Assembly (NCBI GenBank): GCA_016793325.1 | Contig: JAEUKI010000094.1 | Coordinates: 62,001-126,000 of the forward strand | From: Myxococcales bacterium | Lineage (GTDB): Bacteria; Myxococcota_A; Polyangia; Polyangiales; Ga0077539 | Reading direction: 5' to 3' | Length of the DNA stretch: 64,000 nucleotides | Notes under the pieces: model-generated | What the model saw: only the letters and a program-made list of their open reading frames with translations | Told to the model about the DNA's origin: nothing | Database searches by the model: none | In this document: positions 696 through 32,409 of the stretch, piece after piece | Numbering within the stretch: position 1 is the first letter of the stretch | Layout of the letters: each line of letters begins with the position of its first letter | Made by a program: the position numbers and the translations under genes

Positions 696-1465
696 TGCGA
701 GCCTCCTTGCGACGCGGGCGCGGACTTCAGCGCGTGCTCCGGCGGTTCGACGCCGGCTTGCCGCTGACGCGCGAGGCGCTCGTCCGAGACGATGAGCCCG
801 TCGCGCACCGTCACGATTCGCTTGGTGCACGCCGCCACGTCGGGCTCGTGCGTCACCATCACGATCGTGAGCCCCTGCTCGCGGTTGAGCCACTGCAAGA
901 GCGCGAGGATCTCTTCGGTGGTCTTGCTGTCGAGGTTTCCCGTGGGCTCGTCCGCGAGCAAGACCTTCGGCTCGGTCACGAGCGCGCGCGCGATCGCCAC
1001 GCGCTGCTGCTGACCGCCCGAGAGCTGCGCGGGCGTGTTGCGGAGGCGAGACTGAAGCCCCACGAGCGCCAGCGCTCGAGCCGCACGAAGCGTGCGGTCT
1101 TTCACGCTCATCCCGCGGTAGACGAGCGGAAGTTCGACGTTCTCGAGCGCCGTCGTGCGCGCGAGGAGGTTGAACCCCTGAAACACGAACCCGAGCAGGC
1201 GATTGCGCGCGAGCGCGCGCGCGTCCGCGTCGAGCTTCGAGACGTCGTACCCCGCGAGCCGATACGAGCCCCTCGTCGGCGTGTCGAGACAGCCGATCGA
1301 GTTCATCAGCGTGGATTTGCCCGAGCCCGACGGGCCGACGATCGCGACGAACTCACCAGAGTTGATCGTGAGCGACACGCCCCGGAGCGCGCGATGGATC
1401 ACCTCGCCTTGGGCATAGACCTTCTCGATGCCTTCGAGCTCGATCACTGGAGTTGTTTCGCTCAT
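692..1465 (-). CDS. MacB/LolD-type ABC transporter ATPase
   Basis: Cytoplasmic ATPase (257 aa) of the tripartite exporter. All nucleotide-binding motifs are intact: Walker A GPSGSGKST at 44-52, Q-loop FQGFNLL at about 95-101, signature LSGGQQQR at 148-155, Walker B LLADEP at 169-174 and the H-loop histidine in THEP at 205-208. Subfamily features (LolD/MacB-like 'GNLDS' D-loop) agree with a FtsX-family permease partner, which follows with an ATGA overlap. The adaptor gene lies 41 bp upstream on the same strand. The start ATG gives MSETTPVIELEGIEKVY, the usual beginning of this family. Confidence 0.93.
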   Translation of the reverse strand: MSETTPVIELEGIEKVYAQGEVIHRALRGVSLTINSGEFVAIVGPSGSGKSTLMNSIGCLDTPTRGSYRLAGYDVSKLDADARALARNRLLGFVFQGFNLLARTTALENVELPLVYRGMSVKDRTLRAARALALVGLQSRLRNTPAQLSGGQQQRVAIARALVTEPKVLLADEPTGNLDSKTTEEILALLQWLNREQGLTIVMVTHEPDVAACTKRIVTVRDGLIVSDERLARQRQAGVEPPEHALKSAPASQGGSQ

Positions 1466-1506
1466 CGCTGCACTTTCGAGAGGGTCCACGTTCGTCGCGA
1501 AGTCGC

Positions 1507-2928: not shown

Positions 2929-3082
2929 GGCTCGAGTTCCAAACAGTAGCTCTTACGCTCGACCAACCGTTCGCAACCTACAACATTGCGCGTCTCTACA
3001 AATCTTCACGATCGCTTCGGGGGGCCCGACGGAGGTCTGTCGCTTTCTTGCCCAATTGCCAGAGAGTCTGCATTCACGCTCT

Positions 3083-4507
3083 GTGCTGCGAAAGACGCTG
3101 CTCTCTCTCTCGGTCGTCGCCTGCCTCGCGGTCCCAACGGTCGCTGGGGCGCTGCGCGTGCGCGACGCTCGACGCGCGGATTCTGCGCTCGCGCAGGGCG
3201 CCGCGATGCTCGATCGGTCGATCGGCGATCGCGCCGAACTCGCGTCGCTGCCCACCCGCGAGGCGCGCACACAATTTCAAATCGCGCTCGCGGGGCTCGA
3301 CGAAGACGCCGCGCGTCGCGCGCGGTCGCTGACGTTCGTGTGCGACGCGATCGACGCGCTCGCGCGCGGTGAATACGCAGCGGCAGGACAAGCCGCGGAC
3401 GCAGCGCTTCGGCTGCGGCCCGACGAGCCCATCGCCCTCCTCGTGTCGGCGCAGGCCGCCGCAGGGAGGGGCGATCGCGGCAGCGCCGAGCGATCGATCG
3501 AGCGGATGCAACGCGGGACGCTCGCCACGCAGAGCTTGCGCGCCCGAGGCCGTTTGCTGCGCGCGGGATGGCTCCTCGACGCAGGCCGCGCCCACGAGGC
3601 GCTCGACGTGCTCGAGGCCCTCGATCGAGACGCGCCGCGCGTGGGGGCCGTATTGAACCTCCTCGGACTCGCGCGGAGCGCGGTCGGCGATCGCCTCGGC
3701 GCGACGCGCGCGTTCGAGCAGGCGATCGACTCGCACCCGCATCGCGAGGTCGCGCTGCTCAACCTCGCGCGCTCGCAGCGCGAGCAAGGGCAGCTCGACG
3801 AAGCGAAATCCACCCTCGAACGCGCGCTCGGCGTGGCGCCCGACTACGCGGACGGATGGGTCGCGTACGGCGTCGTGCTCGCGGATCTGCGCGCCAGCAA
3901 CGCGCGTCACGTCTTGGTGCGCGCCGCGCAGCTCGCGCCGACCGACGCGACGCCGCTCGCCGCGCAAGGGGCGCTCGACCTCGCGGACCAGCAGTTCGAA
4001 CGCGCCGCGGAGTCCTTTCGTCAGGCGCTGCAGCGAGACCCCGAGCACGCGATCGCGAGGACCAACCTCGGGATCGCCCTCGCGCGCTTGGGTCGCAGCG
4101 ACCTCGCGCTGCGCGCGTTCGAAGAGGTCACGCAGCGCGCTCCGCACGTGGGCGAAGCGTGGAACGGCCTCGGCGCGCTGCGCTTGCAATCGGGTCAGTT
4201 CGAGCCCGCGGTCGCGGCGTTGAGGCAAGCGGTGACGCTCCTTCCGGACGACCCCAACCCGTCGATCAACCTCGGCCGCGCGCTCGAAGGCCTGCAACAG
4301 TGGGACGCCGCGGCGCGGTCGTATCGCGAGGCGCTGCGCCGGCACCCGCAGCACGCAGCGGCGGCCGAACGATTGCTCGCGCTCACGCCGCCCGAAGCGC
4401 GCGAGCGACTCCGCGTTCGTCTGGGATTCGCGCCAGAACCATCGTCCGCTGCGTCGCGGTCGGTGCGCGCTCCTCGCGCATCGCGTACGCTGGCGTCGCG
4501 GAGATAA
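3083..4507 (+). CDS. TPR-repeat protein with N-terminal signal/anchor
   Basis: A 474-residue protein made almost wholly of tetratricopeptide-like helical repeats from about residue 60 to 440; several repeats are clear (for example AWNGLGALRLQSGQFEPAVA and the NLGIALARLGRSDLAL repeat). TPRs are protein-interaction scaffolds; no catalytic domain is visible. The GTG at 3083 is chosen because it yields a basic N-terminus and a hydrophobic segment (LLSLSVVACLAVPTVAGAL) that fits a signal peptide or anchor, and because the in-frame codons further upstream run into the divergent macA gene. The 154-bp region to macA must hold both promoters. The protein ends two bases before the next gene's ATG. Function unknown. 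Confidence 0.75.
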   Translation: MLRKTLLSLSVVACLAVPTVAGALRVRDARRADSALAQGAAMLDRSIGDRAELASLPTREARTQFQIALAGLDEDAARRARSLTFVCDAIDALARGEYAAAGQAADAALRLRPDEPIALLVSAQAAAGRGDRGSAERSIERMQRGTLATQSLRARGRLLRAGWLLDAGRAHEALDVLEALDRDAPRVGAVLNLLGLARSAVGDRLGATRAFEQAIDSHPHREVALLNLARSQREQGQLDEAKSTLERALGVAPDYADGWVAYGVVLADLRASNARHVLVRAAQLAPTDATPLAAQGALDLADQQFERAAESFRQALQRDPEHAIARTNLGIALARLGRSDLALRAFEEVTQRAPHVGEAWNGLGALRLQSGQFEPAVAALRQAVTLLPDDPNPSINLGRALEGLQQWDAAARSYREALRRHPQHAAAAERLLALTPPEARERLRVRLGFAPEPSSAASRSVRAPRASRTLASRR

Positions 4508-4508
4508 A

Positions 4509-4763
4509 ATGATGACCGAAGAGCGAACAGCGAGGCTCGTTCGAGCCACCGTAGCGAGCGTGGACGAAGGACGCGTCGTGCTCGACGCGGACGGACAGGT
4601 CATCAAGCTGCCTGCGTCGCTGCTGCCGACGCCGCCGCGCGAGGGCGACGCGTACGTGTTGACCATCACCGCGGCGCCCGCAGAAAAAGGGCCTTTGCAG
4701 CAGCGCGTGATCGAGCGACTCGAAGCGCTCACGAGCGGCGAGCACCTCGACAAGAGCAAGTAG
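4509..4763 (+). CDS. Small DUF3006-like protein
   Basis: An 84-residue acidic protein. Its layout (a beta-rich 'ASVDEGRVVLDADGQVIKLP' first half, then 'LLPTPPREGDAY') resembles the DUF3006 family, small proteins of unknown function in which an SH3-like barrel is predicted. This assignment is by eye and moderate. It begins two bases after the TPR gene's stop, with GGAG at 4500-4503 serving either ATG 4509 or ATG 4512, so it is co-transcribed with the TPR gene. No signal peptide. Confidence 0.6.
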   Translation: MMTEERTARLVRATVASVDEGRVVLDADGQVIKLPASLLPTPPREGDAYVLTITAAPAEKGPLQQRVIERLEALTSGEHLDKSK

Positions 4764-4778
4764 CGCCGACCGACACAC

Positions 4779-5759
4779 TCAGCCGCGCGGTCGGAGGTTG
4801 GGCACCGTGTAGACGCCCTTGGGGTGCCTCGAGCCGTCCTCTCGTTGATACGGAAACACCCGCAGCGTCCAGTCGCACGTGGGGTCGAACGGAACGAGCC
4901 CGAGCTGCTCGATGTCCCGCGGAACCATGGGCCAGTCGTACGCGAAGAACGGGTTGTGCCCGTTGCCCAAGCGATCGAACTGGCGGACCTCGAAGCTGAA
5001 CCGCAGCCACACGCGGTCGCGCTCTTCGGGCGCGTCCATCGCGATGTGCACGCAGTAGGCGTCCATGAGCATCAGCGAAAAATCAGGGTAATCGCTCCAC
5101 GCGTGGGCGCTGTTGGTGAGCGCGACTTGCCGGTTCATCTCCCAGAACACGTCGTGCTTGGCGACGTCGAGGGCGCTCAAATCGAAGGGCTGAACGAAGT
5201 ACGTCGTCGGCAGCGCGTTGGTGATCGTGTACGTGTGATTCGTGCGCACCTTGGGCGTCCATCGCGCGCCCTGGAAGCCATCGACGTGGCACGGCGCGTA
5301 GTGCCCCTGACCGCCCTTGGGGACGCGCTCGCGGCGCAGGGTCATGTAGCAGTAGTACTCGTCGTAGCAGCGCTTGTTCAGCGCCCACTCGGCGTCGGCG
5401 ACGCGCTGAACGACCGACGCCCACTGCGCGTACTCCATCGGCAATCGAAAGTCCGAGCCCGGAAACTTGATGGGCATATCGAGCACGTTGCGCGCGTCGC
5501 TCGGCGCGACGAAGGCAGACCGCTCCCACGGGTCCAAGACCCCACAATTCAAGGGTCTTCGCGGGACCTTGTACCGGTCCATCGAGAAGGGCACGTTCAG
5601 GTCGTTGACGAGCACGTCGTCCGGCCCGTGCTCGACCGTGATTCCCTCGCGTGGAACGATCGTGACGCACCCCTCGTCGCGGTCGAACACCGGAACCGTG
5701 TAGCGCTTGTTGTTGTACTCCACGGTCTCGTACCGTCGGTGTCCCGTCGCTCCGCTCAT
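4779..5759 (-). CDS. Possible 2OG-Fe(II) dioxygenase-like protein
   Basis: A 326-residue soluble protein with no clear family name. Residues 158-160 (HVD in 'APCHVDGFQG'), His238 (in 'AYCVHIAM') and Arg249 or Arg253 (in 'RDRVWLRFSF') have the order and spacing of the HxD...H...R metal and 2-oxoglutarate ligands of Fe(II)/2OG oxygenases, and the surrounding segments look like double-stranded beta-helix strands. This is inference; the rest of the sequence (many Tyr, Trp, Phe; no signal peptide) gave no further clue. It converges on the small DUF3006-like gene 15 bp away and diverges from the next gene. Confidence 0.55.
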   Translation of the reverse strand: MSGATGHRRYETVEYNNKRYTVPVFDRDEGCVTIVPREGITVEHGPDDVLVNDLNVPFSMDRYKVPRRPLNCGVLDPWERSAFVAPSDARNVLDMPIKFPGSDFRLPMEYAQWASVVQRVADAEWALNKRCYDEYYCYMTLRRERVPKGGQGHYAPCHVDGFQGARWTPKVRTNHTYTITNALPTTYFVQPFDLSALDVAKHDVFWEMNRQVALTNSAHAWSDYPDFSLMLMDAYCVHIAMDAPEERDRVWLRFSFEVRQFDRLGNGHNPFFAYDWPMVPRDIEQLGLVPFDPTCDWTLRVFPYQREDGSRHPKGVYTVPNLRPRG

Positions 5760-5848
5760 CGTCGCGGTCGATGGTACCCGAGCGAGCGCGAGGCAATGGC
5801 CCGACTCGCTCGTTCACCCAGTGCATCGATCCCGTGGGAGCGCCGTTC

Positions 5849-8551
5849 GTGCAGCGAGACACCTCCCGAGACCGCGCGAAGATCCTGAAGAGCCTCGAGA
5901 TCGCTCGCGGCTCGCTCGTCGCTGCGAAGTCCCGAGATCAACGCGCTCGAGCGATCGCGCGCGAAGCGCAGGCGGCGATCGAGCTCGAGCGGCTCGACTC
6001 CCGCGCGCCCGAAATGCACCCTGCGGTCCGCGCCGCGATGGTGAGAATCGGCGCCCTCACACCCCAGCAAGCGATCGACTCGCTGAGCGGGCTCACCGAG
6101 AACGCGACGTCGCTCGCGCTCACCGAGCTCGTCGCCGTGCTCCCGCAGTCCGCGTGGGAGGAGCTCTCGCGCCGCGTCCCGAGCGCGAAGTCTCGCAGCT
6201 GGGCGTGGCTGTACGCCGCGCTCGACCGTGGAGCGCTCGACGAGTGCCTCGCGTTCTTGTCGCGCGACGCGACCATCAACGCGCCGTTCGTGGCCAACGT
6301 GTTCGAGCGCTACGGCCCCCAAGCCGCCGCGCGCTTCGCGCCCCTCGTGCGCGCGCTCGCGCCCCCGGAAGACACCGACGACGCAGCGATCGACCTCGCA
6401 GATCGCGCGTCGCTGCTGCTCGCCCTGCCCCCTGACGAGATCGAGCAGCGAGCGCTCGACCTCGCAGCGGCGCTCGACGAGGTCGCCGACGAAGCGCTCT
6501 ACTTCGATGAAGACTACGACCAACGCGACCCGCGCTCGGCGCTCGTGGTCCTGCTCTGTTTCGTGGGCGAGCTCGGCCGCGCGCGCGCGATGTTCGCGCG
6601 GATCGTTCGAACGCCAGTGCCCTGGGCCCCGGAGGGAGAAGCGCCGCTCGTGACGCCTGGCCTCCGACGATCGCTCGCGGCGCTCTCGTCCGCGTGCACC
6701 GCGGAAGAACGCGCAGTGATTCACCGCGCGGTTCACGAGCGCTTCACGTCGCGCGAGCGCGCTCCGCACACGCTCGCGATGCTCTCGGACACGCTCGACG
6801 AGCCGTTTGCCACGGACAACGCCCTCGCCCTCGTCGCGGCGCTCGAGCGAGACCCGCCCAACACCCTGTGGGTGACCGCGAAGCACCCGACCGCCCGCGC
6901 GGCGTGCGTCGCGATGAAGCGCGAGGCGCTCGGGCGGCTGCGCGACCGCGACGGCTTCGAGAGCCGCGAGCGGTACGCGCTGTCGTCGGCGCTCCAGTGG
7001 CTCGACGAAGACGACGACAACGTGCGCTTCGTGCTCGATCACGCGCAGGACATCGATCGCGTCGTGCGCGGCGACACGGTCCCTCGGTTCGCGACGACGC
7101 AGTGGCTCTTGGAGGCTGCGCAACGGGGCTCCGAGCGCGCACAACGAGCGCTCTGTGAGCGAGCCGCGCAGGGGGAGCGCCTGTGGGAGATTCCCTTCTT
7201 CTACAAGCGATTGCCCGACGAGGTCGTCCGCGCGCTCGTCGCCCCAGCGCAGCCCGAACGCTCGCCCGATCGACGGCGACGAGACTGGACTCGATTGTGT
7301 GTGTCGTTTCTCGAAGGAGCCACTGACGCCGAGCGCGAGCGCGGCTGGCCCAGACTCGAGGCGCTCCTCGCGGACGTCCGGAGCTTCGAGGAGCTCCTGC
7401 CGTGCTTGCGCGTCGTTCCACCGAGCGCGCGTCGAGCGTTGGTCCCGCGGTTCGTCCCCGAGACGCTTCGCACGATGCACGACGCGCTCGCGCTGACCGA
7501 CGCGTGGCCCGACCCCGCGACGCAGCGCGAAATCGTCGAGCGCGCGATGGACCGCTTCGCCCCCGACGCCGCGAAATGGCGCACCGATTGGCTCAACGCT
7601 GCGCTCTGCTCGATGGTGAGCGACGAGCGCGCGATGCAGTGGCTCGCGAGCTGCTACGGACCCGACAACATCCCCGTCGCGGCGATGCCGCCACAGCGCG
7701 TTCGCGACTACCTCGAGAGCGTCGATCTGTACGCGACCGACCAGTGGCTGACCGACGTTCCCTCGCGTCTGTTGGTGGCCGCCCTCGCGTCGATCGACAG
7801 CTCGTCAGCGCTGCTCGAACGCTGCGCAGACGCGTGCTGGTCGCGCTGGCTCGCCCGAGGGGCCGACGCGAACAGCCTTGCTTGGTACTCGCTTCGCGAT
7901 CTCGTCGCGCACGCCTCCGCGCGCACCGTACGCGCGATGAGCGACCACGCATGGACGCTCCGAACCGAGTCCCTCGCCCACGTCCTCGCGCTTCGCATCG
8001 ACGCGCTTCGGCGGTCCGCCACGACAGCGCGCGACGACTCCGACGCGCTCGCGATCGCCGCTCGCTCGCTGCGTGATCGACTCGAAATCAACGGCGGTTC
8101 CCCGTGGTTTCGCGCCGTTCGCCGTTGGGTGGCCGGCGGAGAGACCCGCTCGTTCGACGCGGTGTTTCGTCCGCTCGCTGCGGACTGGCGCGACCGCGGC
8201 TTCGCGGACGACGCTTGGTCGCTCGGCCTCGTCGACGCGCTGCTCTCGCTCGGCGAAACCCTCGCGAGCGCCGACGCCATCGCGCTCCTCGGCGCGCTCT
8301 CGTTCGACGCGAGCGACCCGGCGCTCCAACGCGCCCGCCCGTGGATCGAGCGCCTCGTCGCCGACGATCCCGCTGCCACCTTCCGCGCACTCGACGCGCG
8401 CGTCGGTGTTCTATCGATCCCGACGCTGATCGCTCACTGGGTGACGCCGGACACCCGCCGTTGGCCCTCGTCGATGTTCTCGCGCCCCCACGAGATCCGC
8501 GCCCTCATCGGCGACCACGCGTTCGCGCGCCTCTTGGGGACGGTGCTCTGA
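5849..8551 (+). CDS. Large alpha-helical protein of unknown function
   Basis: A 900-residue protein, not recognised. It is Ala/Arg/Asp/Leu-rich and almost entirely predicted helical, with HEAT/TPR-like spacing of helices but no clear consensus repeat, no membrane segment and no signal peptide. A poly-acidic patch (DEALYFDEDYDQRD) lies near residue 235. GTG 5849 is preferred because GGGAG lies 8 bases upstream and leaves room for a promoter; an in-frame ATG at 5771 would begin only 11 bp from the divergent gene's start and add 26 residues. It may be lineage-specific. Confidence 0.7.
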   Translation: MQRDTSRDRAKILKSLEIARGSLVAAKSRDQRARAIAREAQAAIELERLDSRAPEMHPAVRAAMVRIGALTPQQAIDSLSGLTENATSLALTELVAVLPQSAWEELSRRVPSAKSRSWAWLYAALDRGALDECLAFLSRDATINAPFVANVFERYGPQAAARFAPLVRALAPPEDTDDAAIDLADRASLLLALPPDEIEQRALDLAAALDEVADEALYFDEDYDQRDPRSALVVLLCFVGELGRARAMFARIVRTPVPWAPEGEAPLVTPGLRRSLAALSSACTAEERAVIHRAVHERFTSRERAPHTLAMLSDTLDEPFATDNALALVAALERDPPNTLWVTAKHPTARAACVAMKREALGRLRDRDGFESRERYALSSALQWLDEDDDNVRFVLDHAQDIDRVVRGDTVPRFATTQWLLEAAQRGSERAQRALCERAAQGERLWEIPFFYKRLPDEVVRALVAPAQPERSPDRRRRDWTRLCVSFLEGATDAERERGWPRLEALLADVRSFEELLPCLRVVPPSARRALVPRFVPETLRTMHDALALTDAWPDPATQREIVERAMDRFAPDAAKWRTDWLNAALCSMVSDERAMQWLASCYGPDNIPVAAMPPQRVRDYLESVDLYATDQWLTDVPSRLLVAALASIDSSSALLERCADACWSRWLARGADANSLAWYSLRDLVAHASARTVRAMSDHAWTLRTESLAHVLALRIDALRRSATTARDDSDALAIAARSLRDRLEINGGSPWFRAVRRWVAGGETRSFDAVFRPLAADWRDRGFADDAWSLGLVDALLSLGETLASADAIALLGALSFDASDPALQRARPWIERLVADDPAATFRALDARVGVLSIPTLIAHWVTPDTRRWPSSMFSRPHEIRALIGDHAFARLLGTVL

Positions 8552-19519: not shown

Positions 19520-20737
19520 CTATCGCCGACTCCATTCGACGGCGGCGTTCGAGAGCGTTCGCAGGTTGTCCGAGGCGAGCCACGCGATCGCTTCGGGACG
19601 CTCGCGCACGTACGCGTCGGCGAACGCGAGCGCGGTCGTCTCCATCCAGAGATAAAACTCTTCGCACCGCGCGACGGGCGCGCCGCGCATGCGCTGGTAG
19701 TCCTCGCACGGGCCCACGCTGTGATCGAAGGTCGCGTGGAGCGATGCCATGTCCGTGTTCCAGAAGCGAAACTTGTTCATGGGCGCCATGAGCTCGAACG
19801 CCCGTCGCCGCTGCGCCGGATCGGACTCGGGCGTGCGATCACCGACGCCCGTGACGCTCAAGTGCGGACGCGTGATCGCCGCAAACGACGCGTCGGTAAA
19901 CCCGTCGTCCATCGGCCCCTCGATCGAGAACCCGATGAACGCGCGCGGCCGCGGATCCGGCTGCGTCCGCGGCATTCCCGCGAGGTACTCGCGACTGGCG
20001 CCCGCGACCATCGACACCGAGCCCGCGCCCGCCGAGTGCCCTGCGTAGAGCAACCGCCGAACGTCCGCGACGCCCGCCATCGGCCCGCGCGATTGCTCGT
20101 CGAGCCAATCGAGCACGCGGCGCACGTCGTTGGGACGATCCCAGTGCAAGTACTTGAACCGCGCGCAGTCCGCAGCGACCGTGATCCCCACGTGCGCGCA
20201 GAGCGCCGCGCGGCTCGCCTCGCTCCGCGGCGCGTGCGCGATCCCGATGAAGAGATACCCGCCCGCGTTGAACACGCGAGACCACTCGTTGCCGACGCCG
20301 CCTGCGTTGACGATTCCGTCGGCGCCTCCGTGAGACCAGACCACAATGGGCCACGGCTGCGGAGCGCCCATCGGCCTGCGAATCGCCACTTCGAACGTCC
20401 GCATCGCGCCCGTCGCGTCCGTGTACGAGAGCATCTGCGTGAGCACCGGCTGCGCGCCGAACAGCCGCTCGGGTCGATACGCGCACGCCATCGGGTTCGT
20501 CGCAGAACACGGGGCGACGCCGCTGTCCGCCACGCGCGCATCGACGACGCCGCTGTCCGTCGCCGTCGCGTCCGCTGCGCTCGTCGCGTCCAGCACGACG
20601 CCCGAGTCCGTCATCGCCGCGACGTCGCGCGCAGCAGTGTCCTCGATCGCCGCGTCTCGATCGCTCGTCATCGGAGGGCTGCACGCAGCCAAGAACAACA
20701 CCGCACACGCCACCGAACTTCGTCCAACGCTCGTCAT
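19520..20737 (-). CDS. Alpha/beta-hydrolase lipoprotein
   Basis: A 405-residue exported protein: signal peptide MTSVGRSSVACAVLFLAAC with lipobox LAAC, a 70-residue Asp/Ala/Ser/Val/Thr linker containing 'TDSGVVLDAT' and 'ADSGVAP' units, then an alpha/beta hydrolase of the dienelactone/PAF-acetylhydrolase type. 'VVWSHGG' is the oxyanion region, 'YAGHSAGAGSV' the nucleophile elbow (Ser of GHSAG), and 'HATFDH' near the C-terminus may supply the histidine. Probable location is the outer membrane. The esterase substrate is unknown. It diverges from the next gene across 235 bp that contain palindromes. Confidence 0.85.
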   Translation of the reverse strand: MTSVGRSSVACAVLFLAACSPPMTSDRDAAIEDTAARDVAAMTDSGVVLDATSAADATATDSGVVDARVADSGVAPCSATNPMACAYRPERLFGAQPVLTQMLSYTDATGAMRTFEVAIRRPMGAPQPWPIVVWSHGGADGIVNAGGVGNEWSRVFNAGGYLFIGIAHAPRSEASRAALCAHVGITVAADCARFKYLHWDRPNDVRRVLDWLDEQSRGPMAGVADVRRLLYAGHSAGAGSVSMVAGASREYLAGMPRTQPDPRPRAFIGFSIEGPMDDGFTDASFAAITRPHLSVTGVGDRTPESDPAQRRRAFELMAPMNKFRFWNTDMASLHATFDHSVGPCEDYQRMRGAPVARCEEFYLWMETTALAFADAYVRERPEAIAWLASDNLRTLSNAAVEWSRR

Positions 20738-20819
20738 GTCCCCGAGGAATCGCACGACGCGTGCCGCGCAAAAGAGCCCACCAAACGCAGCGCTCCGAAG
20801 CGCACCTCGCGACCGCTGC

Positions 20820-20890
20820 GGACTCGAGTCCTCAGCAGGGTGCGGACTGGAGTACGCGACGTTCCCACCGCTGACTCCGTGGCCACGGAG
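20820..20890. promoter_or_regulatory. Two palindromes in divergent intergenic region
   Basis: The 235-bp region between the hydrolase and DUF4215 genes holds two perfect palindromes: the 12-base GGACTCGAGTCC at 20820-20831 and the 16-base CTCCGTGGCCACGGAG at 20875-20890. Both lie upstream of both genes, where an operator would sit; the second could also be a stem. No factor is known. A short G+C-poor tract (aatttc...ttttt) at about 20919-20938 might be part of the downstream gene's promoter. Confidence 0.45.
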
Positions 20891-20972
20891 CACATCGAAC
20901 TACGCCGCAGCACATGAATTTCGACCCACTTTTTCCTGCGGGATCAGCGATCGCGCAACGATTGCGCCTATC

Positions 20973-22532
20973 ATGGCGCTCATGCAATCACGCACTTCGA
21001 GCAATCCGACACGCACCCTCGCGCTCTTCGCGCTGCTCGCGGCCGCGGGCTGCAGCGCTCCTATGACGCCGGGCGACGGAGGCGACGCAGCCACGGACAC
21101 GCGCGCCGACACGTCGCGCCCCGATGGACAACCGCCGCCCGATGTCGTCGCGACAGACGCGCCCATCGACGATGCCCCGTCGCCGACGGACAGCGGCGGC
21201 GCCGACGACAGCGCGACGCCGACGGACAGCGGCGTCGATCCCGACACAGGCATTGCTCCCATGGACAGCGGAACGTCGACGGACTCGGGCGTCGTGACCG
21301 ACAGCGGAATCCCCGCAGATTCGCGCGTCACGGACACCGGCGTGGACACGGGCGTTCGCGCGGACACGGGCGTGGACACCGGTGTTCGCACGGATAGCGG
21401 CGTCGATACAGGCGTCGATACAGGCGTCGACAGCGGCGTGCGGATGGACAGCGGCGTCGACAGCGGAACGCGCCCCGACACCGGCGTCGATACGGGCGTC
21501 GATACAGGCGTCGGAATGCTCTGCGGCAACGGACGACTCGACCCCGGCGAAGAGTGCGACGACAACAACACCACGCGCTGGGATGGATGCAGTCACCTCT
21601 GCCGCCTCGAGCAGACGGTGCGCGCGAACGCGATCTCGATCGTTCAATCGGCTCCGGCGATGCGCGTGGGCTGCGACATCACCGGCGACGGAACGATCGA
21701 CAACCGACTCGGCGAAGCGATCACCGACCTCGCGATCGACAACCTCAACAACTCGCTGCGCGACAGCGTGACCTCGGGACAGACCAACGTGCTCGCGCAC
21801 TTCATGGACCTCGACGATCGTACGGGCCGCACGGACCCGATGATCCGATTGGCGTTCTTCACAGGCGCCGACGCGATGACGCCATTTCAAAACGTCGCGG
21901 GCGAGAGCTTCACGATCCCGCGCGCCGAGCTCACGCCCTCGCTCGACCCGCTCTCGCCGTTTTCGCCAGCAGCCATCAACGCCAGCGCGCTCACCGGAGG
22001 CCCCGGCACCATCGTGATGCGCATCAATCTGGCGGGCGCGCTGACGCCGCTCACGCTCTACCGCGGGCGCGTGACGGGGACGACCACGACCAACACAATG
22101 CTCAACCGTATCGAAGGAATCACCAACGGACGCATCTGCGGCGCGCTCACCGCAGGGGACCTCGATCGCATCGCGTGGCCTGCGGGGCTGCCCGGGACGT
22201 GCGCCGTTCCCACAGCGCCCGCGCCGATGGGCTCACCGTACTCGCTGCTCGACTTGCTCACGAGCGGCTGCAACGTCTTCGGCTTGGCAGTGATTCGCCC
22301 GATCCAGCCAGACATCGACATCGCCGGAGACGGCCTGGCCACGGGCACGGGGACGCCCGCGCGACAGCTCCGCGACACCAACATGGATCGCGTCGTCGAC
22401 ACTTGTTACGACAGCACCGCGAACACCGTGATCACCGGCGCCAACTGCGCTCAGGATCCGCGCATGGACGACGCGATCTCCGCCGCGATGAACTTCGGCG
22501 CGATCCGCATCGTGATCTCGGGCCTCCGCTGA
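20973..22532 (+). CDS. Repeat-rich DUF4215 lipoprotein
   Basis: A 519-residue surface lipoprotein. Signal peptide 'LALFALLAAAGC' (start ATG 20973, or ATG 20982). Residues about 30-185 are a low-complexity Asp/Ser/Gly/Val/Thr region built from units such as 'DTGVDTGVR' and 'DSGVDTGVD'. A DUF4215-type myxobacterial cysteine motif follows (CGNGRLDPGEECDDNN ... DGCSHLC). The rest (about 230-519) is a beta-rich domain with 'DITGDGTIDNRL' and 'DTNMDRVVDTC', resembling EF-hand-like calcium loops. No enzyme signature. Function unknown; likely a spacer-borne surface protein. Confidence 0.8.
   Translation: MALMQSRTSSNPTRTLALFALLAAAGCSAPMTPGDGGDAATDTRADTSRPDGQPPPDVVATDAPIDDAPSPTDSGGADDSATPTDSGVDPDTGIAPMDSGTSTDSGVVTDSGIPADSRVTDTGVDTGVRADTGVDTGVRTDSGVDTGVDTGVDSGVRMDSGVDSGTRPDTGVDTGVDTGVGMLCGNGRLDPGEECDDNNTTRWDGCSHLCRLEQTVRANAISIVQSAPAMRVGCDITGDGTIDNRLGEAITDLAIDNLNNSLRDSVTSGQTNVLAHFMDLDDRTGRTDPMIRLAFFTGADAMTPFQNVAGESFTIPRAELTPSLDPLSPFSPAAINASALTGGPGTIVMRINLAGALTPLTLYRGRVTGTTTTNTMLNRIEGITNGRICGALTAGDLDRIAWPAGLPGTCAVPTAPAPMGSPYSLLDLLTSGCNVFGLAVIRPIQPDIDIAGDGLATGTGTPARQLRDTNMDRVVDTCYDSTANTVITGANCAQDPRMDDAISAAMNFGAIRIVISGLR
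21331..21513 (+). repeat. Degenerate tandem repeat coding for DTGVD/DSGVD units
   Basis: Short coding repeat inside the DUF4215 lipoprotein. It consists of 9- and 18-base units of the form GGCGTCGA(T/C)AC(A/G/C) that code for DTGV and DSGV. The units vary in synonymous positions, which suggests a mix of duplication and drift rather than a fresh expansion. Confidence 0.8.
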
Positions 22533-22538
22533 GCGCGC

Positions 22539-23909
22539 TCAGCTCACGAGCCCCGGCAGCCACTCGCCGCTGCCGTCGCCCCAACCGCTGACGCGCTCGC
22601 CCATCGCGCCCGCGATCGCCGCGAGCAGGTCACCGTGACGTCGGTTCTGCTCGATCACGCGCCCTGGCGAGATGCACCCGCCCCCGCGTCCGGCGACGAC
22701 GAAGGGCATGTCCGCGTGCGAGTGCGTGTTTCCGTCGCTCACTTCGCTGCACAAGAGAACGACGCTGTGATCGAGCATCGTCCCGTCTCCCTCGGGCCGC
22801 GCGCGCAGTTGTTCGAGCAGGTACGCGAACTGCGCGACCCACCAACGACGCTGCTTGAGGTAGTCGGTAAACAGTCGATTCGCGCGGTCCTGGCGCGCTC
22901 CGTAGTGCGACGCTTGATGGCTCCGCATGTCGAAGCCCGGGTCGTACATCTCCGAGCCCATGAAGCGCGACATGATGAGCTCGCTCGTGTGCTGCGAGCC
23001 CTGGATCACGCCGACCTTCGTCAGACCGCAGGCCATCGCGGTCACCATCAAGTCGGTTTGAGCCCGTAGAATCCGCGGAAAGTTCTCTGGTGCATACAGC
23101 GCCGACCCCGTGAGCTCCGCGTACTCGAGCCGCGGCATCGCGCAGGACGCGGGCGGCGGCGTGCCCATCATCATGCCCGTGGACATCGCGCGCAGGCGCG
23201 CTTCGAGCTCGCGCAGCGCCTCGAGGTGAAGCGAGAGCTTCGCGGACTCGGACGCGCCCGCGCGGGACGAGAGCTCGTTGAGATCTCCGAGCGCGCTGTC
23301 GATCACCGAGCGATCGTCGTCGAGGTCTGTGTTGGTGGGGGCGGGGGTGGTCATGCCGCCGACCGTTCCGCTGCCGAACAAGCGACGAAACGCGCGGATC
23401 GGGTCGTCCTCGGGCGTCACCGTCACGCCCGCGCTCGCGTAGGAGATGAACTTGTCTCCCGACGCGTTGTTCGCGTTGGCCTGCGCGCCCAAGTACACGT
23501 GCCGGTGCATCGCTTCGCGCCCGACCGTGTTCGCGATGAAGTGATCGATCGACGTCCCTCCGCCGCCGTCTTTGTTGGTGAGCAGCTTCTTGGCCCCGCC
23601 TGGGTGCGAGCCCTCGTCGGTCGAGCCCATGTGCAGCCCGCGCACGAAGACGCAGTCGTTCTTGCGGGCCTCGAGCGGCTGCAGGATCTCGCTGAGCGCG
23701 AGCGAGCTGCCCGCGCCAGTGGCCCACCAGAGCGTGCCCATCCCGTCCTGGCTGCGACCCGCGATTCCATCAGGAAAATAAAAGACGATCACGCGCCGCG
23801 CGCGCCCGTTGCTCATCGCGCGACGCGACGCGGTCGTCATCGCCGCGGCCGCCGTGCCCGCGACGAGCCCGCGCAGAAGCGCCCTCCTCGAAAACGATCG
23901 CGCGCTCAT
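22539..23909 (-). CDS. DUF1552 secreted protein (Tat substrate)
   Basis: A 456-residue DUF1552-family protein with N-terminal Tat signal SRRALLRGLVAGTAAAAM. The family is found next to DUF1592 proteins in planctomycetes and myxobacteria and is related to alkaline-phosphatase-like DUF1501 proteins. Visible parts are 'VIVFYFPDGIAG' early, 'SEVSDGNTHSHADMPF' and 'VLLCSE' near the end. The start overlaps the DUF1592 stop (ATGA), with GGAGGG upstream. The enzymatic role is unproven. Confidence 0.88.
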   Translation of the reverse strand: MSARSFSRRALLRGLVAGTAAAAMTTASRRAMSNGRARRVIVFYFPDGIAGRSQDGMGTLWWATGAGSSLALSEILQPLEARKNDCVFVRGLHMGSTDEGSHPGGAKKLLTNKDGGGGTSIDHFIANTVGREAMHRHVYLGAQANANNASGDKFISYASAGVTVTPEDDPIRAFRRLFGSGTVGGMTTPAPTNTDLDDDRSVIDSALGDLNELSSRAGASESAKLSLHLEALRELEARLRAMSTGMMMGTPPPASCAMPRLEYAELTGSALYAPENFPRILRAQTDLMVTAMACGLTKVGVIQGSQHTSELIMSRFMGSEMYDPGFDMRSHQASHYGARQDRANRLFTDYLKQRRWWVAQFAYLLEQLRARPEGDGTMLDHSVVLLCSEVSDGNTHSHADMPFVVAGRGGGCISPGRVIEQNRRHGDLLAAIAGAMGERVSGWGDGSGEWLPGLVS

Positions 23910-26092
23910 GGGTCCCTCCGCAGCAAGAACTCGGGCGCAGAAAGCACCGCCACCATCAGCTCGCGCACGTCGTCGTTGGCCGCGCCGAAGCGCCCGACGA
24001 TCGACCGCACGCCGCAGCGATCCGCCAGCGTCTCGTGGTAGCCCCGCGCGTAGCGAAAGTACTGCCGCGCGAAGCACGCCCTCGCGCTCTGGCTCGCCGC
24101 GAGCGATTGCCCGAGCTCGCGCAGCGTCGCGAAGCGAAGCGTGTCCGTCCCTCCGTCCGCTTCGAGGTCGAGCAGCGCCCCTACGCGGTCGATCGTCGCG
24201 CCGTTCTCCGTGGTCCTCGCGCGGCCGATCGCGTCGAAGCCCTCGAACCCGAAGCCCACGTCGTCGATGTACCGATGGCACGCGTTGCAGGCCGGGTTGG
24301 ACGTGTGCATCGCGAACCGCGCCCGCGTCGTCGCCCTCGGGTCCACGTCGGGCACCCCGCCCGCGTTCGCAGGCGGCGGGGGAAACTCCTGGCACAACAG
24401 GTTCTCTCGCACGAACACCCCGCGCTGGATGGGCGACGTCTGATCCGAGTGAGCGAAGCGCGCGAGCACCGCGGCCAGACCGAGCACGCCCGCGCGATCG
24501 GGCGACGGCCACGAGGCGCGTTGAAAACTAGCCCCAGTAATACCCGAGATCCCGTAGTGCGTCGCGAGCTCGCCGTTGACGAAGCTGTAGTCCGCCGTGA
24601 AGAGCTCCCCGAGCCGGTGCGTCCCGTCGAACACGACGTGGGTCACGAAGCGCCGCGCTTCTTCCATCACCGACGCGCGAAGAGCGTCGCTCCACGTCGG
24701 GAAGAGCGTTTGATTTCGTGTGGCGGTGGCCACGGGCTCGACCTTCAGCCACTGCAGCGCGAACGCCGAAAACGCGGTCCTCGCCCGCGCGTCCATCACC
24801 AAGCGCCGCGCCTCGCGCTCGATGCCCGCCGCGGTCGAGAGCGTTCCATCCGCCGCGGCGGCGGTGAGCGTCGCGTCGGGGAGCGTTCCCCAGAGCGCGT
24901 ACGAGAGCGCGCTCGCCACTTCGTAGCCCGTGAGCCTGAAGGTCCCGTCGGGCTGCCGCTCGCCGAGCTCCGTGCGATACAAAAACGACGGCGACACGAG
25001 CATCCCTCGCAGCGCCACACGAAGCCCTTGCACAGGGTCCGCGCCGCGCATCACGAGGGCCGTGTAGCGCGCTTGCTCTCCGCTCGTCAGCGGCCGTCGA
25101 AACACGCGCGCGCCGAACTCACGAACGAACCTGGCGCCGCACCCCGCGCGATCCGCGCGAACGTCGCAGCCCGCGAGCGTCGTGACCCGATCGCCGAGCG
25201 CGTCGACGACGGCCTTCGCGCTGCGCAGGTACTCGCTCGTGTGACTCGCCGTCACGACGTTGACCGTCACGTCGTTGTCGAACACGCCGCCCGAGGCGCG
25301 CGCGTCCGCGGGCAGGTTCGCCGCGACGTCCACGCCCGTCATCGAGCTCGTGGACGCCCCGCACGACACAGTGATCACCGAGTTTTGACCGCCGAATCCG
25401 TCGGGGGACGTCATCGCGTTGCGCTCGTCGCGGACCCAGTCGCGACCGTCGAGGACGAACTTGTACTGGTGTGTTCCGTCGGGGATGTCTCGCGTCGTGA
25501 CCCACGCGCCCATCGTCATGTCGAACGTCATCGGCCAACGATCCGCGGACCAATCGTTGAAAGACCCCGCGAGGTTCACCCGCGCGACGGTCCGCCCCGC
25601 GGGAAAGTACGCGAACGTCCTGCGATTGCACTCGCCCTGCACCGCCGCGCCGCCAACGCCGAGCAGGTCGCGCACCGTGTTTCGATACTCGCTCCGCGTC
25701 AGCCTCCGCACGCGGCGCAATGACGGCCGCGGCGCATCGCACGCCAGCGCGCGTGTGTTGAGCTCGCGAAGGATGAAGCTCGCGATCCGATCGGGGCACT
25801 CTCCCGTACACGCGGCTGGATTGCCCGAGGGCATGCTCGTCCCGATGGGCCGTCGGAGCGCGTCGTAGCCCCGCGACCAATCCGACAGCTTCGGGCCGCG
25901 CCCGCCCTCGCCCGCTTCACCGTGGCAGCTCGCGCACATCCGCGCGTAGAGGGCAGCGCCGTTGGCGACTTCTCCCACCACCGCGCCGTCGCCCGCGCCG
26001 CGCGCGTCGGTCCCTGCGTCGGTGTCGCTCGACCGCGGCGGCCCGCAGGCGACCAGCGAGAGCGCCACGCACAATACTCCTCGCGCGCTCAT
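23906..26092 (-). CDS. DUF1587/1592/1588/1585 cytochrome-like lipoprotein with inserted CBM48/AMPK-like module
   Basis: A 728-residue exported protein. Signal peptide with lipobox LVAC at residue 16; a c-type heme site CASCH at 53-57 with 'RPIGTSMPSGNP' as candidate axial-Met region; DUF1587 'RSEYRNTVRDLLG' at 133-145; DUF1595/1592 near 350-490 ('RLTGYEVASALSYALWG'); DUF1588 near 550-650 ('DQTSPIQRGVFVRENLLCQ'); DUF1585 at the C-terminus. Residues about 160-243 ('VNLAGSFNDWSADRWPM ... GTHQYKFVLDG') resemble a CBM48/AMPK glycogen-binding beta sandwich and split the usual DUF1587. Coupled on both sides (ATGA) to the zinc-ribbon and DUF1552 genes. Role unproven. Confidence 0.88.
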   Translation of the reverse strand: MSARGVLCVALSLVACGPPRSSDTDAGTDARGAGDGAVVGEVANGAALYARMCASCHGEAGEGGRGPKLSDWSRGYDALRRPIGTSMPSGNPAACTGECPDRIASFILRELNTRALACDAPRPSLRRVRRLTRSEYRNTVRDLLGVGGAAVQGECNRRTFAYFPAGRTVARVNLAGSFNDWSADRWPMTFDMTMGAWVTTRDIPDGTHQYKFVLDGRDWVRDERNAMTSPDGFGGQNSVITVSCGASTSSMTGVDVAANLPADARASGGVFDNDVTVNVVTASHTSEYLRSAKAVVDALGDRVTTLAGCDVRADRAGCGARFVREFGARVFRRPLTSGEQARYTALVMRGADPVQGLRVALRGMLVSPSFLYRTELGERQPDGTFRLTGYEVASALSYALWGTLPDATLTAAAADGTLSTAAGIEREARRLVMDARARTAFSAFALQWLKVEPVATATRNQTLFPTWSDALRASVMEEARRFVTHVVFDGTHRLGELFTADYSFVNGELATHYGISGITGASFQRASWPSPDRAGVLGLAAVLARFAHSDQTSPIQRGVFVRENLLCQEFPPPPANAGGVPDVDPRATTRARFAMHTSNPACNACHRYIDDVGFGFEGFDAIGRARTTENGATIDRVGALLDLEADGGTDTLRFATLRELGQSLAASQSARACFARQYFRYARGYHETLADRCGVRSIVGRFGAANDDVRELMVAVLSAPEFLLRRDP

Positions 26093-26775
26093 CGCAGCCC
26101 GAGGTCCTTCAAGACCCACCGCACCCATCCCCACAAGCCCGGCTCGATCTGATCCGCGCGACCCTCGCCGCGGGCCCGCGCCGCCGCGCACGGAACACAC
26201 ACGAGTCCGTCGACGTCGAGCGAGCTCTCTTCGAACGCGACCATCTTTCGACACTCGCAGCACCGCGTACGCAGCGCTCCGTTGTCGCGCATGACCGAGG
26301 CCGCCGCGGCCGAGCGATAGTGCCCCGAAGCGCGGCCTTCGCCAGTCTCGTGCAGCGACAGCGCTTGGATCACCGCGTCCACTGATCCGTGCGGAGCCCA
26401 CACGCCCGAACACCGAGGACAGAGCCCCAGCGACACGCCCACGAATTCAACGCGCGCCAACGTCGTGCTCGCCTCGCTGGGGGGCTCGAACTCCGGCGGC
26501 TGCGGCGTGTTTCTCCACGCCGTGCACCGCGGACAGCGAAGCACTGCGTCCTCGGCCTTGCGCAAGACTCGCGCACTGTTGAGAAGGGCGTCGCTCGCCG
26601 AGCGCGCGCCGAGCCGCGGGTCGATGGCCTCGTACTCACCGTGGTCGTACCACGTTCCGCACGTCGCATCGCCGTCGGGACCGGGGCAACGATCGATGTA
26701 AATCGTCTTGAAATCAGCGCCGGGGACGTCGTGCTCCACCATCTCTCGCGCGCACTCGGGACACTTCAGCGGCAT
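26089..26775 (-). CDS. Zinc-ribbon protein (zf-TFIIB-like)
   Basis: A 228-residue cytoplasmic protein with three cysteine pairs: residues 4-7 (CPEC, with a further Cys near 30 and 39), about 82 (CPRC) and about 120 (CPRC), then CCECRK and CVPC near 180-200. The last part (GLWGWVRWVLKDLGLR) is amphipathic. ATG 26775 starts the classic 'PLKCPECAREM'; the frame is open to 26796. It is the first gene of a coupled chain with the DUF1592 and DUF1552 genes, which suggests a role in expression or assembly of that pair. The family's function is unknown. Confidence 0.75.
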   Translation of the reverse strand: MPLKCPECAREMVEHDVPGADFKTIYIDRCPGPDGDATCGTWYDHGEYEAIDPRLGARSASDALLNSARVLRKAEDAVLRCPRCTAWRNTPQPPEFEPPSEASTTLARVEFVGVSLGLCPRCSGVWAPHGSVDAVIQALSLHETGEGRASGHYRSAAAASVMRDNGALRTRCCECRKMVAFEESSLDVDGLVCVPCAAARARGEGRADQIEPGLWGWVRWVLKDLGLR

Positions 26776-26847
26776 GGCTTCGGCGATCGTACACAATCAG
26801 CGGCGCCGCACGAGAGCAGAGCCGTTGGTCGCGCTACGATCGCGGGT

Positions 26848-28715: not shown

Positions 28716-29897
28716 ATGCGTCGACTTCGTGAGCTCGTTCTTTCGATCGTTACGTGCGTGTGCGCCGAGGGTTCGCTCGTTGCGTGCTCGCCATCGACAC
28801 CCGTCGACGCATCGAGCGACCAAGGGACCGACGCAGCAGCGCCCGACGCCCCAAGCGACGTCGCGAACGACATCGCTGCGGATTCAGACAACGACGCGTC
28901 GAGCACGCCCGCGGACTCTGGCGCGTGCCCCGCGCTCCCGATGCCCATGACGTTCGTGCGCAACCCTGCCGTCGCACACCCGATGGACGAGATGCTTCGG
29001 CTCAATCACATCCAAGCCGAAGCCACGCACAACAGCTACCACCTCCGCGGACGTACAGACCTCCCCGAGTGGAACTACGAGCACGCCCCCCTCGGCGAAC
29101 AGCTCACGAACCAAGGCGTCCGCGGCGTCGAGCTCGACCTCCAATGGGACGCGCGATGCAGACGCTTTCAGGTCTATCACGTCGCCGCGCTCGACGACCG
29201 CTCGACGTGCAGGTACTTCACGGACTGCCTGCTCGCGATCCGCGCTTTTTCTGCGGCGAATCCCGGCCATCACCCGCTCTTCATCCACGTCGAACCCAAG
29301 GGCCCCGAAGGCGCGTACGACGAGGCGGGCTTCGCGCAAGTCGAGCGCGAGATCCTCTCGGTCTTCGATCGCTCGTGGATCATCACGCCCGATGAAGTGA
29401 AGGGCGCCTCGACGACCGTGTCCGAAGCGATCACCACGCGAGGCTGGCCGACGCTCGCGCAGTCGCGCGGACGCGTGCTCTTCTACCTCGACAACACGAC
29501 GGCGCCGCGCAACATCTACACGCACAACGGCAGGGATTTGAGCGGCCGATTGATGTTCGTCGACAGCGCGATGGGCGAGCCCTTCGCCGCCGTCATGGTC
29601 CTCAACGACCCGACCTCGAGCGCCACGGCCATCGCCCGAGCGCTCGCCGCGGGCTACCTCGTCAGGACCCGCGCAGACTCGGACCCGACCGAAGCGCGCA
29701 TGAATACACGCACACAATTGACCGCCGCGCTCGCGTCGGGCGCGCAGATCGTGAGCACGGATTTTCCCGCGCCCACCGCGGGCACGGCGTACGTCGTCGA
29801 GGTCCCCATGGGGACGCCCTCGCGCTGCTCGCCCGTGACGGCCCCCGCGGGCTGCACGCCCGCCGCGATCGAAGCGCCCGCCCGCCTGCGCCCGTAG
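28716..29897 (+). CDS. Ca2+-dependent phosphoinositide phospholipase C-like lipoprotein
   Basis: A 393-residue exported protein with signal peptide and lipobox LVAC (Cys24), then a Asp/Ala/Ser linker, and a TIM-barrel phosphodiesterase of the Ca2+-dependent PI-PLC group. Catalytic first histidine is His104 in 'ATHNSYH'; a second histidine is in 'FQVYHVAALDD', and metal-binding acids are in 'GVRGVELDLQW' and 'FIHVEPKG'. Related proteins cleave phosphoinositides or glycerophosphodiesters; the actual substrate is unproven. It diverges from the beta-barrel-like gene. Confidence 0.85.
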   Translation: MRRLRELVLSIVTCVCAEGSLVACSPSTPVDASSDQGTDAAAPDAPSDVANDIAADSDNDASSTPADSGACPALPMPMTFVRNPAVAHPMDEMLRLNHIQAEATHNSYHLRGRTDLPEWNYEHAPLGEQLTNQGVRGVELDLQWDARCRRFQVYHVAALDDRSTCRYFTDCLLAIRAFSAANPGHHPLFIHVEPKGPEGAYDEAGFAQVEREILSVFDRSWIITPDEVKGASTTVSEAITTRGWPTLAQSRGRVLFYLDNTTAPRNIYTHNGRDLSGRLMFVDSAMGEPFAAVMVLNDPTSSATAIARALAAGYLVRTRADSDPTEARMNTRTQLTAALASGAQIVSTDFPAPTAGTAYVVEVPMGTPSRCSPVTAPAGCTPAAIEAPARLRP

Positions 29898-30579: not shown

Positions 30580-32409
30580 CTACGTCGCCGCGCGCCACGA
30601 CGCGAGCGCCCACAGCGGGTAGTACGTCCCCGCTGCCGCGTGCCGATAGAACGTCTCGGGGGGATAGATCGCGCACAGGTGCTGCGAGCCGTCCCAATCA
30701 CCTCCCTCTCGCTGCGCGTCGACGAGCCACCGAACCGCGCGCGACGCCGCGCTCGACTTCGCCCGCCCACCGTCGATCAGCGCCGTGAGCACTCGGCCCG
30801 TCACCGCCGCACACGCAGGCCCTTTGCCCTTGGTCTCGGGCCGCTCGTAGCTCTCGACGCTCTCGCCGAAGGCGCCGTCGTCGAGCTGACATCGGCCCAA
30901 GAAATCAAGTCCCCGCTCGATCCACAGGTCCTTTGCGCCGACCGCCAGCGCGCCTCGCACCGCGTAGCTCGTGCCTGCGGTGTAGTTGGTCAGCCATCGA
31001 CCGAAGAACGAGCCGTCGTCGAGCTGCTGCGCCCGCAAGAACGCGAGCCCGCGATCGACCGAAGGATCCCCCACCCGAAAGCCCCTCGCGCCGAGGCCCG
31101 AGAGAACGCGACCCGTGACGTCTTCGGCCGACGGGTCGCCGAGCTCGAGCGGCGGGCGCGCCGCGAGCGCGAGCAGCGTCCGGGGGTCGCTCGGATCGAT
31201 GACGACCGGGCTCGTGAACAACGGCCCGCGGGGCTTCGTTGGGTGCCCGCACACGTATGAAGCCCAGCCTCCGTCGGGGTTTTGCATTCCACGAAGCCAG
31301 GCGACGAGCGCGTCGATCGAGGCGTGATCTTCGTCTCGCGCGAGCTCCGAGAGCGCGCCGAGCGCGGCGCCCGCGTCGTCGCAGTCGGGCAGCACCGTGT
31401 TGTCCGCGCGAAACGCGTAGCCGCCCACCAGCGGGCCGTCTCCGTGCTGGTGATTCTCGCGCGCTTGCGGCGAGCGACACTGCGCCGCGACGAGGTACTC
31501 CCGCGCGCGCACGAGCGCCGGATCGCGCGCGTCCGAGCCCGACGCCACGAGCGCGTGAACGGTGAAGATCGTCGCCCACAAAGGGACCTCGAACGCGTCC
31601 CAGAAGAGCCCCGCATCGTCCTCGCGACGCTCGCGCGAGAGCCACCCGAGCGCCCGTTGAATTCGTGGGTCACCGTGGTCCACCCCCGCGGCGTGCAGCG
31701 CGGCGAGGTGCAGGGCCGTGACGGGGGCCCACGCGTTCCAGCTGCCCGTGGGGTTTTGAAATGTGGTGAGCCAGTGAACCCCGCGCTCGGTCTCGCGCCG
31801 AGAGAGCCACGAAGGCCCCGTCGAGAGCCCCGCGCTCGCGCGGAGGCGCTTGGTGACGAGCCGCTGGGCGAACGCCGTCATCAGCACGCCGCCGTGAAAG
31901 CGCCGCAGAAACCAGCGCTCCCCCGCGCCCGTGGCCAGCGCGTAGAGCGGCATGTCGGGCAGCGCGCTCGGCGCGAGCTCGCCCAGCATCGCGAGGTACA
32001 AGAGCGAGAGATCTCCCCGCGTCGCGTCGCGGGTGATGCGCTCGACGCCGCCTCGCGCGCGCACGAAGCGCTCGGCGCGGTCGATCACCGAGGCGCTTCC
32101 CCCGTAGCGACGCAGGTACGCCGCGACCACCGCCGTCGCGCCGACGTGCCCCTCGCTCTTGCGCGGAAAGAGAACGAACCCGCCGCTCGCGCTCGCCTGC
32201 CCCTCGAGCCACGACGCGATCCGTCGACCGTCCTCCGGTGAGAGCTCGTCGCAAAACGCGAGGCACGCCGCGGTCTGCGCGGTCGCCGCGGGCCCCACTT
32301 CGCCGGGCGCCGGCCACGAGCCGTCCGCGCGCTGAACGCCCTGCAAATACGCTCGCGATCGCACGATCGCGTCGTCGACCGCAGCGCGCGACGGAGCCGA
32401 TCGGGTCAT
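30580..32409 (-). CDS. Squalene-hopene cyclase family terpene cyclase
   Basis: A 609-residue protein of the class II triterpene cyclase family, which cyclises squalene or other polyprenyl substrates by protonation. The catalytic acid motif DXDD is present as D342-C-D344-D345 in 'TVLPDCDDAGAAL'. QW-type repeats are seen ('QNPTGSWNAW' about 218, 'QNPDGGWASY', 'QLDDGSFFGRWL', 'QREGGDWDGS'), and the C-terminus (AAGTYYPLWALASW) matches the family's ending. No signal peptide. The window has no squalene synthase or hopanoid-tailoring gene, so the substrate is open (hopene, diterpene or tetraterpene product). An anchored protein is encoded 8 bp upstream. Confidence 0.88.
   Translation of the reverse strand: MTRSAPSRAAVDDAIVRSRAYLQGVQRADGSWPAPGEVGPAATAQTAACLAFCDELSPEDGRRIASWLEGQASASGGFVLFPRKSEGHVGATAVVAAYLRRYGGSASVIDRAERFVRARGGVERITRDATRGDLSLLYLAMLGELAPSALPDMPLYALATGAGERWFLRRFHGGVLMTAFAQRLVTKRLRASAGLSTGPSWLSRRETERGVHWLTTFQNPTGSWNAWAPVTALHLAALHAAGVDHGDPRIQRALGWLSRERREDDAGLFWDAFEVPLWATIFTVHALVASGSDARDPALVRAREYLVAAQCRSPQARENHQHGDGPLVGGYAFRADNTVLPDCDDAGAALGALSELARDEDHASIDALVAWLRGMQNPDGGWASYVCGHPTKPRGPLFTSPVVIDPSDPRTLLALAARPPLELGDPSAEDVTGRVLSGLGARGFRVGDPSVDRGLAFLRAQQLDDGSFFGRWLTNYTAGTSYAVRGALAVGAKDLWIERGLDFLGRCQLDDGAFGESVESYERPETKGKGPACAAVTGRVLTALIDGGRAKSSAASRAVRWLVDAQREGGDWDGSQHLCAIYPPETFYRHAAAGTYYPLWALASWRAAT

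Follow-up and report, generated by a model that had tools for sequence, protein, structure and literature searches.

What does a module of carbohydrate-binding type do in the middle of a protein of the DUF1592 family? The question is raised by one gene in a 64,000-nucleotide stretch of a Myxococcales genome (contig JAEUKI010000094.1, positions 62,001 to 126,000; hereafter the window). Genomes of Planctomycetes, Verrucomicrobia and Myxococcota encode many copies of DUF1592/PSCyt3 (X132) proteins, and to our knowledge neither they nor the DUF1552 proteins, one of which is encoded by the adjoining gene, have a known catalytic function.

In the 728-residue product, Pfam places Cytochrome_CBB3, a piece of DUF1587/PSD3 (profile positions 1-20 only), AMPK1_CBM (PF16561), DUF1595, DUF1592, DUF1588 and DUF1585 in this order (Table 1). 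The succession DUF1587-1595-1592-1588-1585 with a CxxCH motif in DUF1588 is that of DUF1592/PSCyt3 (X132-like) proteins; the DUF1587 of such proteins is uninterrupted, whereas here it is split by the CBM, and we therefore treat the window protein as a variant of the type. The N-terminus (MSARGVLCVALSLVAC) contains a lipobox and both CxxCH motifs are invariant across an alignment of 20 orthologs, and we infer a lipoprotein that is exported to the outer surface and binds two hemes. No GH13 alpha-amylase catalytic domain was matched by Pfam anywhere in the 728 residues, so the protein is not a GH13 amylase or pullulanase.

Table 1. Features of the DUF1592 gene and its partner, in window coordinates.
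Feature	Residues	Position	Strand	Basis
Whole DUF1592 gene, 728 aa + stop		23906..26092	minus	Pfam, sequence
Lipobox LVAC, predicted lipoprotein signal	13-16	26045..26056	minus	sequence
c-type cytochrome domain, X183-like	41-107	25772..25972	minus	PF13442; PDB 8q1v, 8q1w, 7b21
First heme-c motif, CASCH	53-57	25922..25936	minus	sequence
DUF1587/PSD3 part 1 (profile 1-20), helix RRLTRSEYRNTVRDLLGVGG	129-148	25649..25708	minus	profile match
Segment inserted between DUF1587 halves, ~105 residues incl. linkers		25334..25648	minus	profile match, CBM-less relatives
Cys155, just before module	155	25628..25630	minus	alignment
AMPK1_CBM/CBM48-type module	171-243	25364..25582	minus	Pfam, PDB sequence match, AlphaFold, Foldseek
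Trp181, AMPK Trp100 equivalent, sugar stacking	181	25550..25552	minus	sequence comparison
Lys211, AMPK Lys126 equivalent, hydrogen bond to sugar	211	25460..25462	minus	sequence comparison
Trp219, AMPK Trp133 equivalent, sugar stacking	219	25436..25438	minus	sequence comparison
Asn237, AMPK Asn150 equivalent, hydrogen bond to sugar	237	25382..25384	minus	sequence comparison
Cys244, just after module	244	25361..25363	minus	alignment
DUF1587/PSD3 part 2 (profile 20-62)		25199..25333	minus	whole-genome profile search
DUF1595/PSD5	318-375	24968..25141	minus	Pfam
DUF1592/PSD4	387-515	24548..24934	minus	Pfam
DUF1588/PSCyt3	533-629	24206..24496	minus	Pfam
Second heme-c motif, CNACH, inside DUF1588	602-606	24275..24289	minus	sequence
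DUF1585/PSD2	654-722	23927..24133	minus	Pfam
DUF1552 (HXXSHH) partner gene, 456 aa, twin-arginine-like N-terminus MSARSFSRRALLRG (judged by eye)		22539..23909	minus	E 4.9e-54

The inserted module (residues ~156-244) is of AMPK/CBM48 type by profile, by sequence match to solved structures and by fold. On the full protein PF16561 scores E 4.7e-9 and 36.8 bits against a curated cut-off of 26.8, and on an excised 106-residue fragment E 1.4e-10 and 41.7 bits, where CBM_48 (PF02922) is also detected at E 5.4e-5 and 23.9 bits (cut-off 22.4). Sequence matches in the PDB are to the CBM48 of a GH13 pullulanase (5ot1, 2.9e-10), the glycogen-binding domain of AMPK beta1 (1z0n, 7.5e-9) and the SEX4 glucan phosphatase (4pyh). 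The AlphaFold model (mean pLDDT 80.6, pTM 0.76) gives the module blocks values of ~86-90 and its flanking linkers low confidence on both sides, and Foldseek aligns the modelled module, a beta-sandwich, to the AMPK beta1 domain (1z0m) with a TM of 0.86 and an rmsd of 1.9 Å. An earlier note on this DNA had read an AMPK/CBM48 pattern at 25364-25615, coordinates which are correct and correspond to residues 160-243, and had let the idea depend on a significant profile match; the Pfam score above cut-off, the PDB matches and the fold bear it out. Fold and four sugar-contact residues are shared with the AMPK beta domain, the CBM48 of GH13 enzymes, SEX4 and PTST, but those modules sit in kinases, hydrolases, phosphatases and scaffolds, whereas the host here is a heme protein.

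DUF1587 is interrupted exactly at profile position 20, and the module lies between profile segments 1-20 and 20-62, just as the earlier note had placed it between the start of the domain and its continuation. Each of the other DUF1587 copies listed for the family's 13 genomes (~50) is a single uninterrupted match, whilst CBM-bearing proteins give split or truncated matches, with the break at position 20 in the clearest cases. The nearest core-domain relatives that lack the module (L142-L144, L146) read straight through the site (e.g. DLLGIAAPDVDSFPVETSVRGYDNE), where the window protein has ~105 extra residues, linkers included. Frameshift or chimeric assembly is ruled out as the cause, because the same insertion recurs in dozens of independent assemblies. 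A search for this insertion in other DUF1592 proteins, which the note had suggested, found full-span matches (DUF1587 start, CBM and continuation) in 8 of the 13 family genomes. At the level of the order 24 of 184 genomes have such a match, which in one case begins only at the CBM, and a sample of 379 genomes drawn from across the phylum gave 32, belonging to several families and at least two classes. The best 80 of 391 confirmed places in a scan of GTDB r220 include at least 33 named loci, nearly all from MAGs labelled Myxococcales, Polyangiaceae, Sandaracinaceae or similar; the names of three full-span loci among the matches listed make no mention of Myxococcota (L072, 'Proteobacteria'; L091; L122), and the CBM matches in other phyla among these 80 places are not DUF1592 proteins. 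Three proteins of ~1240-1290 aa from Latescibacterota and related MAGs each carry five tandem AMPK-type CBMs (L128, 4789-8583; L129, 3575-7435; L130, 21-3725).

In a tree of the core domains (417 columns, 62 rows) a single branch sets the CBM-bearing proteins apart (support 87/60; recovered in 85% of bootstrap trees), and the CBM-less relatives named above form the neighbouring group, a topology compatible with, and giving moderate support to, a single origin of the insertion. Recent capture from the family's own GH13 amylases is not supported, as the DUF1592 modules stand apart from those CBMs in a CBM tree of few columns; their companions in the same tree are an amylase in L103 and a PPC-domain protein in L105, both myxobacterial. 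The latter, a 1971-aa frame (1-5913), comes from a Sandaracinus MAG and combines PPC domains with three AMPK-type CBMs. In one lineage of DUF1592 loci, that of L054 (match 1501-2109), L077 and L160, the CBM is directly preceded by an additional Cys-rich stretch, seen in L054 as CSTDADCAIATESCLAGVCQKDPC.

In AMPK, glucose units are stacked against Trp100 and Trp133 and hydrogen-bonded by Lys126 and Asn150, all four residues contacting cyclodextrin (PMC9788615), and in PTST mutation of the two equivalent tryptophans abolishes starch binding (PMC4339375). The equivalents W181, K211, W219 and N237 are all kept in 37 of 37 distinct DUF1592-protein copies, but in just 11 of the 22 related CBMs of the same family's amylase-type proteins (with Y allowed for the second W); much of the remaining surface of the module is variable in the alignment, unlike these residues. 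The module would thus appear able to bind alpha-glucan, judging from its sequence, and the carbohydrate target that the earlier note proposed for the lipoprotein is a reasonable suggestion. Cys155 and Cys244 do not vary in the alignment of 20 sequences; of the 37 rows, 32 have the first and 35 the second. The two presumably form a disulfide bridge at the module's base.

Of the solved structures in the PDB, those closest to the N-terminal cytochrome are 8q1v, 8q1w and 7b21, both with the single sequence (2.4e-8, 1.7e-6 and 6.3e-4) and with a profile (7.1e-16, 3.2e-12 and 6.1e-7). The last is the X183 domain of Cbp2D from Cellvibrio japonicus, and the first two, deposited as 'Putative lipoprotein', we take to be the Teredinibacter X183 structures of PMC10916295; this relationship, together with the CxxCH motif, identifies the domain as an X183 cytochrome. 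Cbp2D has X183 followed by X132, a block with CxxCH and DUF1587 annotation (PMC8981238), for which PMC10916295 prints 'DUF1687', probably a misprint. From these papers CAZy X132 appears to be the DUF1587-1585 block, and the window protein would then be X183 plus an X132 interrupted by a CBM48.

Cbp2D (CBM2, X158, FN3, X183 and X132/DUF1587) is likewise a secreted heme protein with X183, a DUF1587-containing X132 with CxxCH, and a CBM (PMC8981238), but its CBM2 is of cellulose type and lies outside the X132 region. The window protein has an alpha-glucan-type module inside DUF1587 and a DUF1552 partner, and its Pfam scan contains no CBM2, X158 (YceI) or FN3, the domains expected of a Cbp2D ortholog. 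TERTU_2913 and TERTU_3803 of Teredinibacter turnerae share X183 cytochromes and X132, but have several X183 copies, X122 domains and no CBM48, and TERTU_2913 has no CBMs. The PSCyt/PSD proteins of Planctomycetes and Verrucomicrobia share the PSCyt3-PSD set, often with CBMs and with an adjoining conserved unknown gene family, but their modules are Laminin_G_3, Bac_rhamnosid_N, NPCBM, CBM6 and PA14, a list from which AMPK/CBM48 is absent (PMC5615132).

CBMs on PSCyt/DUF1592 proteins are thus already known (CBM2, CBM6, PA14, CBM60), and the premise of the earlier note that DUF1592 proteins have no known substrate needs correcting as regards carbohydrates. CBM-bearing PSCyt proteins have been described in Verrucomicrobia (PMC5615132), a Cellvibrio CBM2 protein annotated DUF1592 comes from a lignocellulose study (PMC6004670), and normal growth on cellulose requires Cbp2D, with its CBM2, X183 and DUF1587-bearing X132 (PMC8981238, PMC12542752). 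On the insoluble form both Cbp2D and Cbp2E are required for growth to be normal, and the Cellvibrio group suggests that a novel mechanism cuts it directly (PMC12542752). In our search of the literature available without subscription we saw no DUF1592 protein described with an AMPK/CBM48-type module, nor any CBM inside DUF1587.

The ATG of the DUF1552 gene overlaps the DUF1592 stop codon (ATGA), and a DUF1552 homolog adjoins the gene in 31 of the 33 named loci, the exceptions being L064, whose contig ends too early, and the L077 lineage, which is without it; in L160 none was found within its shorter stretch. CBM-less relatives also have DUF1552 genes nearby, and the pairing is therefore a feature of the core and does not go with the CBM. 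Clustering of neighbouring frames for other conserved neighbours yielded mostly antisense shadow frames. No alpha-glucan gene was seen beside the locus and the other neighbours show no glucan theme, so genome context does not point to starch. A Zn-ribbon (TFIIB-type) protein is encoded at 26089-26796 (minus), its stop codon overlapping the DUF1592 gene start, and has an upstream homolog in only two of the 33 named loci, the near relatives L062 and L063. Other window genes encode a lipoprotein-like protein that contains a domain of calcium-dependent phosphoinositide phospholipase C (28716-29897, plus; PI-PLC-C1, E 5.9e-74), a squalene-hopene cyclase-like protein of 609 aa (30580-32409, minus) and a protein that has a long Asp/Thr/Gly/Val repeat linker (DTGVDTGVRTDSGVDTGVD...) and a weak DUF4215 match (20346-22532, plus).

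Elsewhere, the same genome encodes secreted-looking GH13 amylase-type proteins with related CBMs, gives 10 PSD3 matches, and includes a paralog (L001, C36:47235-50423) with the same DUF1587-1595-1592-1588 core and a CBM. The paralog differs in that its module is a xylan-type CBM60 located between an intact DUF1587 and DUF1595, outside DUF1587. The presence of both proteins in one genome suggests that interchangeable CBMs address different DUF1592 proteins to different polysaccharides.

Three other accounts of the module have to be weighed. It could be only a structural domain, or one for protein-protein or intramolecular contacts, that has lost free glucan binding: it is inserted, not terminal, and the contact residues are eroded in many of the family's amylase CBMs. 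CBM48 modules of some proteins are indeed structural or intramolecular domains, which counts against a glucan-targeting role, and those of AMPK and branching enzymes also pack on catalytic partners. We nonetheless consider this unlikely, as the four contact residues are invariant in all copies across many families while much other surface varies, and the poorly modelled linkers on both sides suggest that the module may be mobile. Also rather unlikely is that the module does no more than attach or position the protein (on prey glycogen, exopolysaccharide or starch), with the X132/DUF1552 chemistry directed at an unrelated compound. The DUF1592 proteins of a genome are numerous and most of the copies examined have no CBM interruption, which means that sugars need not be what the core acts on, and DUF1552 genes lie beside CBM-less relatives too; against this, the CBM60 paralog and the CBM-bearing members in other phyla (PMC5615132) suggest that the CBM goes with the substrate.

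The protein might also donate electrons to an LPMO with alpha-glucan as its substrate, the role that has been proposed on cellulose for Cbp2D, since its X183 is related to that of Cbp2D, which in isolation reduces LPMOs in vitro (PMC8981238). This we regard as highly improbable: no AA10 LPMO (PF03067) that could act as acceptor was found in the ~94% complete genome, the YceI-like X158 domain of Cbp2D is absent, and isolated Teredinibacter X183 domains failed to drive an LPMO (PMC10916295).

The probable reading, in our judgement, is that the window protein corresponds to the Cbp2D-type (X183-X132) redox proteins but is targeted to alpha-glucan, and that it acts with its DUF1552 partner, a proposal that draws on features computed here: the identity of the module, its place inside DUF1587, its conservation, the intact contact residues, the X183 relationship and the DUF1552 pairing. 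The protein would be a lipid-anchored, di-heme redox protein of the X183-X132 (Cbp2D-like, DUF1592) family on the outer surface, held on starch- or glycogen-like polymers by the module, which would move on flexible linkers and probably be clamped by a disulfide at its base. The X183 and DUF1588 hemes would supply electrons to, or take them from, a reaction at or close to the polymer, presumably a redox reaction on the alpha-glucan, and the exported DUF1552 partner may help in this electron exchange. Bolder, and improbable on present evidence, is the idea that X183-X132(CBM48) and DUF1552 form a bacterial system that relies on heme and needs no LPMO to oxidise or cleave starch or glycogen outside the cell; if true, it would be the alpha-glucan counterpart of the 'novel mechanism' proposed for Cbp2D/Cbp2E on cellulose.

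Work on Cbp2D has reportedly been hampered by insoluble cellulose and by failed expression of the full-length protein. A natural member of the family whose alpha-glucan module appears intact can be studied with soluble, cheap and chemically defined ligands (maltooligosaccharides, cyclodextrin, glycogen), with a two-Trp mutant as control, and the action of these heme proteins on polysaccharides therefore becomes directly testable. The inserted module thereby gives the widespread DUF1592 family a candidate sugar target that can be tested directly.
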